A stretch of DNA of 29,647 bases, from positions 1 to 29,647 of IMG/VR virus record IMGVR_UViG_3300009503_000092. One strand, given 5' to 3'. This document shows positions 19,381 through 19,484 of the stretch, piece after piece. The notes beneath the pieces are model-generated. The model searched no databases. It saw only the letters and a list, made by a program, of their open reading frames with translations, and was not told where the DNA came from. This DNA comes from a virus. The stretch's first letter is position 1; each line of letters starts with the position of its first letter. The position numbers and the translations under genes were made by a program.

Positions 19381-19484
19381 GTGACGTAATCTGGTGACAT
19401 AATCTTGTGACAGTATATTGTGACATAATCTTGTGACATACTACAGTAACAAACTATAGTGAGATACTATAGTAACAGGAATAT
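19381..19484 (+). repeat. Eight tandem 13-bp direct repeats (iteron-like)
   Basis: Units begin at 19381, 19394, 19407, 19420, 19433, 19446, 19459 and 19472, exactly 13 bp apart. The consensus is GTGACATAATCTT. The first five keep GTGAC exactly; the last three diverge to GTAAC, GTGAG and GTAAC. Regular spacing near one helical turn and the early-gene side location resemble initiator-binding iterons or an operator array. Confidence 0.8.

Follow-up and report, generated by a model that had tools for sequence, protein, structure and literature searches.

The window, i.e., the whole stretch of DNA analysed, corresponds to one linear virus record of IMG/VR (29,647 bases); its source is a tailed phage, probably podovirus-like. 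Two divergent operons were recognised: a leftward one for packaging and structural (late) functions, with genes for an SU10-type portal, a Terminase_6 large subunit and a phage capsid protein, and a rightward, early one with nuclease, Holliday-junction-resolvase-like and metallophosphoesterase genes. They are separated by a gap of 582 bp that contains an array of 13-bp repeats. On the late side lies the terS-position gene (18935–19252, − strand; candidate small terminase, no family match), followed by the large terminase (17622–18938, − strand; Terminase_6N/6C); on the early side the divergent operon starts with a gene for a protein of 104 aa (19843–20157, + strand; pI 4.2, no family). The GC skew switches sign at the array region, coinciding with the change of the coding strand. 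Rfam and tRNA scans of the window gave no matches. As open frames extend beyond both ends and terminal repeats are absent, genes missing from the window are no proof of absence; the contig is probably incomplete.

Close relatives of the window comprise one near-identical twin contig (99.97% identity over 13,757 bp; array identical) and one lineage (L091/L092/L104) at 49% terL identity. The members of this lineage have other genes upstream of terL, and the array site is therefore not comparable there. All four differences between the twin and the window fall at 25520–26304, three of them within 21 bp (25520–25540). Genome-contig scans with terL and portal yielded no relative, the scan of a phage collection with the intergenic DNA gave nothing useful, and no clear signal was obtained from the divergent regions upstream of terL in the distant relatives tested.

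The repeat array and the late promoter

The array (19381–19484, + strand) consists of eight 13-bp direct repeats with the core GTGAC on the + strand (GTCAC in the late-gene sense), all in the same orientation. The units start at 19381, 19394, 19407, 19420, 19433, 19446, 19459 and 19472, at a pitch of exactly 13 bp; self-matching at period 13 was 67/91, against 44.9 ± 2.1 (max 54, n = 500) for the best period of 7–30 in Markov shuffles of the local region. The eight units of the original prediction, one every 13 bp from 19381 to 19472, were thus recovered. Its statement that the first five keep GTGAC was likewise borne out: perfect cores stand at 19381, 19394, 19407, 19420 and 19433 (19381–19437), and are followed by three degenerate units (GTAAC, GTGAG, GTAAC; 19446–19484, + strand) that carry ACTATAGT palindromes. 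The conserved end of the array points toward the late promoter and the decay runs away from the late side, as had been claimed. GTGAC-N8-GTGAC was observed 4 times vs 0.01 expected. Of the predicted repeat unit the 13-bp pitch stood and the exact wording did not: GTGACATAATCTT is present just twice, the 8 bp behind GTGAC being variable (ACTAYA in units 5–7, AATCTT-like ends in the other units).

Distal to terS, at about 19485–19720 (+ strand), the array gives way to irregular, AT-rich GGTATAT(A) repeats, ca. 11 bp apart. The second array that had been predicted 16 bp further on is thus not a clean, separate one: this irregular series sets in as the first array fades out. In the window, the least stable 100 bp (19624–19723, z −3.7) fall nearly all within the GGTATAT(A) series, and 19519–19618 is also unstable (z −2.8).

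Toward the late genes faces a perfect consensus sigma70 promoter, TTGACA-16-TATAAT (19260–19287, − strand), the only 12/12 sigma70 match in the window. The distance from the nearest array core to the start of the −35 element is 98 nt, and to the expected transcription start ca. 130 bp. The −10 element shares bases with the first ATG (19261) in the terS-position gene; the second ATG (19252) stands at the expected transcript start, so that the late mRNA may be leaderless. The product of this gene is acidic (pI 5.6) and has no recognisable DNA-binding domain; its AlphaFold2 model (pLDDT 55.6) was set aside as low-confidence. One isolated GTGACATAAT occurs inside terS (19023–19035, − strand). On the early side, inspection by eye showed no −35 element of comparable quality before the TATAAT at 19791. 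Promoter-like hexamers also occur on the + strand inside the array (GTGACA-16-TATAGT, 10/12); promoter-like matches in the region show no overall excess (20 vs 19.1 expected from shuffles).

Comparator arrays and the winged-helix family

Since the direct relatives were too few for a test of conservation, IMG/VR was searched by the array pattern (four GTGAC cores 13 bp apart, other bases free). The twin contig and 19 others matched. In 6 of the 19 (L130, L131, L133, L138, L142 and L143) the array lies directly upstream of the gene preceding terL, is oriented as in the window and has an AT-rich run on its distal side. Each of the six has five cores (L142: four and GGCAC); the five perfect cores and the 13-bp spacing of the window are the number and spacing of most of these phages. 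The last core is located 6–7 nt before a −35-like hexamer, which is TTGACA in L130, L131, L133 and L142 and a poorer match in L138 and L143; the terS start follows on its far side. The L131 promoter is 12/12 with a 16-bp spacer, like that of the window. Between lineages only GTCAC is constant, the post-core bases being A-rich in the window and pyrimidine-rich in the comparators. The terL genes belong to phrog_675 (L138, L143), GpA_ATPase (L142), phrog_5902 (L131) and phrog_2472 (L130, L133); as L138, L142 and L143 are mutually related, and L130 and L133 as well, the independent lineages number about three plus the window. Binomial estimates of the enrichment at terS range from 3e-5 to 1e-13 depending on the assumptions and, presupposing random placement in a 40-kb genome, are only indicative. 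The comparators came from a search for the motif of the window itself, and their link to the window is therefore suggestive at most.

The other 13 matches are mostly near-perfect minisatellites or lie inside open frames, and in none of them was an array seen directly upstream of a terminase gene. GTGAC-containing minisatellites close to the record ends (L135:25–68; L139:14038–14180) resemble, as judged by eye, the short-repeat arrays beside the terminal repeats of T7-like phages. L133 has a second short array (5969–5997) with three GTGAC cores 12 bp apart in GTGACAAAATGC-like units. Arrays in ca. 80 distant terL loci were mostly coding repeats. The 11-bp TCAC-core arrays of L078 and L084 were set aside because their resemblance to the window array was inseparable from chance; these two (L078:1740–1830; L084:1800–1890) stand at matching positions of related phages, near a DnaA box, and have conserved flanks and different units.

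A family of 72–76-aa proteins (A6/A7) has its gene immediately before the array in L131, L138, L142 and L143; a profile search located it also in L130, ca. 500 bp upstream of the array (E 2.6e-11), and found no homologue in L133 or in the window. The protein is predicted to fold as a winged helix (mean pLDDT 85.6), and the best Foldseek matches of the model, for which a viral library was also searched, were winged-helix transcription regulators, all weak (best E 0.014). A search with the A6/A7 family alone led to one new contig, L151, in which the predicted array was present (five cores, here 14 bp apart), together with TTGACA, a terS-like gene and then a terminase-like gene. The prediction thus succeeded in one case, that of a contig related to L131. 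A description of the GTCAC array/winged-helix/terS module was not found in the literature searched. The 76-aa winged-helix family is a candidate regulator for the comparator module.

Function of the array

The array of the window is read, with a probability only just above one half (about 0.52), as an operator that regulates the late operon in cis and to which a putative phage protein binds. This candidate phage-encoded DNA-binding protein would fill the row of GTCAC cores and would thereby switch the late-facing sigma70 promoter (19287–19260) of the packaging/structural operon. This reading draws on the position of the array between the early and late operons, where it adjoins the only 12/12 promoter of the window, and on the recurrence of GTCAC arrays before the terS promoters of other phages, mostly together with a winged-helix gene; the switch operator for the late promoter is accordingly the best supported of the three options originally put forward. 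We infer that the array serves the same purpose as the comparator arrays, acts over 98 bp and binds a protein. Against an operator speak the 98 nt between core and −35 element (6–7 nt in the comparators), the lack of a winged-helix homologue in the window, the different post-core bases, and the 13-bp pitch, which does not hold the units on one helix face. A perfect promoter, moreover, has no need of an activator, and for this reason early repression is at least as plausible as activation.

An origin of replication of the iteron type is an unlikely alternative in which an initiator would bind the 13-bp repeats and melt the adjacent AT-rich DNA, as at oriL/oriR of SPP1, a phage with two origins made up of direct repeats and an AT-rich unwinding element (PMC6316719). 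In the window, as at SPP1 oriL/oriR and other iteron origins, direct repeats adjoin AT-rich DNA that melts easily, here the least stable of the whole window, and the GC skew changes sign at the array; the skew change, however, coincides with the change of the coding strand, the comparator arrays abut a −35 element, and the genes tested of this linear, probably incomplete contig included no recognisable initiator, helicase loader or polymerase. Moreover, a DnaA-box cluster with unstable DNA of its own is situated ca. 1.7 kb from the array, inside the early region. It is composed of five TTATNCACA at an 11-bp pitch (boxes, 21126–21197) and then six YTA triplets (21238–21255), all on the + strand (21126–21255); the second least stable DNA of the window is found here too, and 16-bp GGTAACC repeats also occur within 21126–21360. 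The element resembles the bacterial oriC unwinding region with its DnaA-trio, but the last DnaA box ends at 21192, leaving 45 bp to the triplets at 21238, and the usual distance is 10–13 bp (PMC8287927). As judged from these motifs, it is oriC-like and suggests replication started by the host DnaA. The proposal of a second origin at the array keeps the least stable DNA beside the repeats in its favour, but the DnaA-box cluster is the better origin candidate.

It is distinctly improbable that the array is a packaging initiation site (pac or cosB-like) with repeats bound by a small terminase ring upstream of terS, although it adjoins the terS-position gene and an isolated GTGACATAAT is found within that gene. 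In L130 and L133 a segment of 92 bp that takes in the array and the −35 element is 90% identical, and their terS-position proteins have no detectable similarity; this argues against TerS as the binder, and a non-TerS factor acting at the promoter would fit these two sequences better. The acidic terS candidate of the window, devoid of a recognisable DNA-binding domain (low-confidence model), points the same way, so that the pac option of the original prediction is weakened. Furthermore, two assemblies run through the array site unbroken, and pac repeats were hardly preferred by the DNA-binding domain of the SF6 terminase (PMC4737164). In SPP1 pac, direct repeats are likewise placed near terS and its promoter, but they form three sets that cover the promoters as well as the start of terS; for the terS-position protein of the window, binding is unsupported. 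Improbable, too, is an assignment of the array to something other than the late promoter, i.e., as an operator of the early (rightward) promoter, a site of autoregulation by an early protein, or a DNA-organising/partition site. The array precedes the early operon as well, has promoter-like hexamers on its + strand and continues toward the early genes in an AT-rich series; on the other hand, the conserved units are at its late end, promoter-like matches are overall not above shuffles, and the comparators tie GTCAC arrays to terS promoters.

The operator reading can be tentatively extended, at a strength that leaves it rather doubtful: the GTCAC/13-bp array would be a transferable late-gene switch placed before unrelated terminase modules, usually with a small winged-helix regulator, and the window would present its divergent-operon form, acting at a distance via a different regulator. 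A repeat signature before terS that is common to phages with different terminases offers a handle by which late promoters, and the proteins that regulate them, can be sought in metagenomic phages of uncultivated hosts, and the 76-aa winged-helix family a concrete, testable candidate for the regulator of the comparator module.

Comparison with known systems

The GTCAC module is represented by L130, L131, L138, L142, L143 and L151 (L133: array only). The window shares with it five perfect cores, the 13-bp pitch and the orientation, as well as a sigma70 promoter toward terS and the AT-rich distal side. It differs in the distance of 98 nt from core to −35 element (module, 6–7 nt), in its extra degenerate units and in the post-core bases; the winged-helix gene just upstream is lacking in the window, and is absent from L133 too. 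The array is filed neither as a member of the GTCAC module nor in the Ltr class, and its link to the module is suggestive.

Late regulators of the Ltr class in Gram-positive phages bind to direct repeats, imperfect and about four in number, that precede the late promoter; the Alt repeats of TP901-1 are located at −76 to −32, and the 18-bp Ltr repeats of phi13 at −107 to −42, their deletion abolishing the promoter (PMC13123087). As in the Ltr, RinA and TP901-1 Alt operators, direct repeats are found in the window upstream of the promoter of a packaging/structural operon. There are, however, eight 13-bp units with a GTGAC core, ca. 130–230 bp upstream of the expected start, the nearest core being ca. 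130 bp from it, whereas the Ltr repeats lie within ca. 110 bp upstream of the transcription start; the −35 and −10 elements of the window are perfect. The Ltr class has the gene for a small, basic regulator immediately before the promoter; the window has instead a divergent layout without a winged-helix homologue. The comparator phages match the Ltr layout closely, and the window agrees with it in kind but differs in distance and lacks an adjacent regulator gene.
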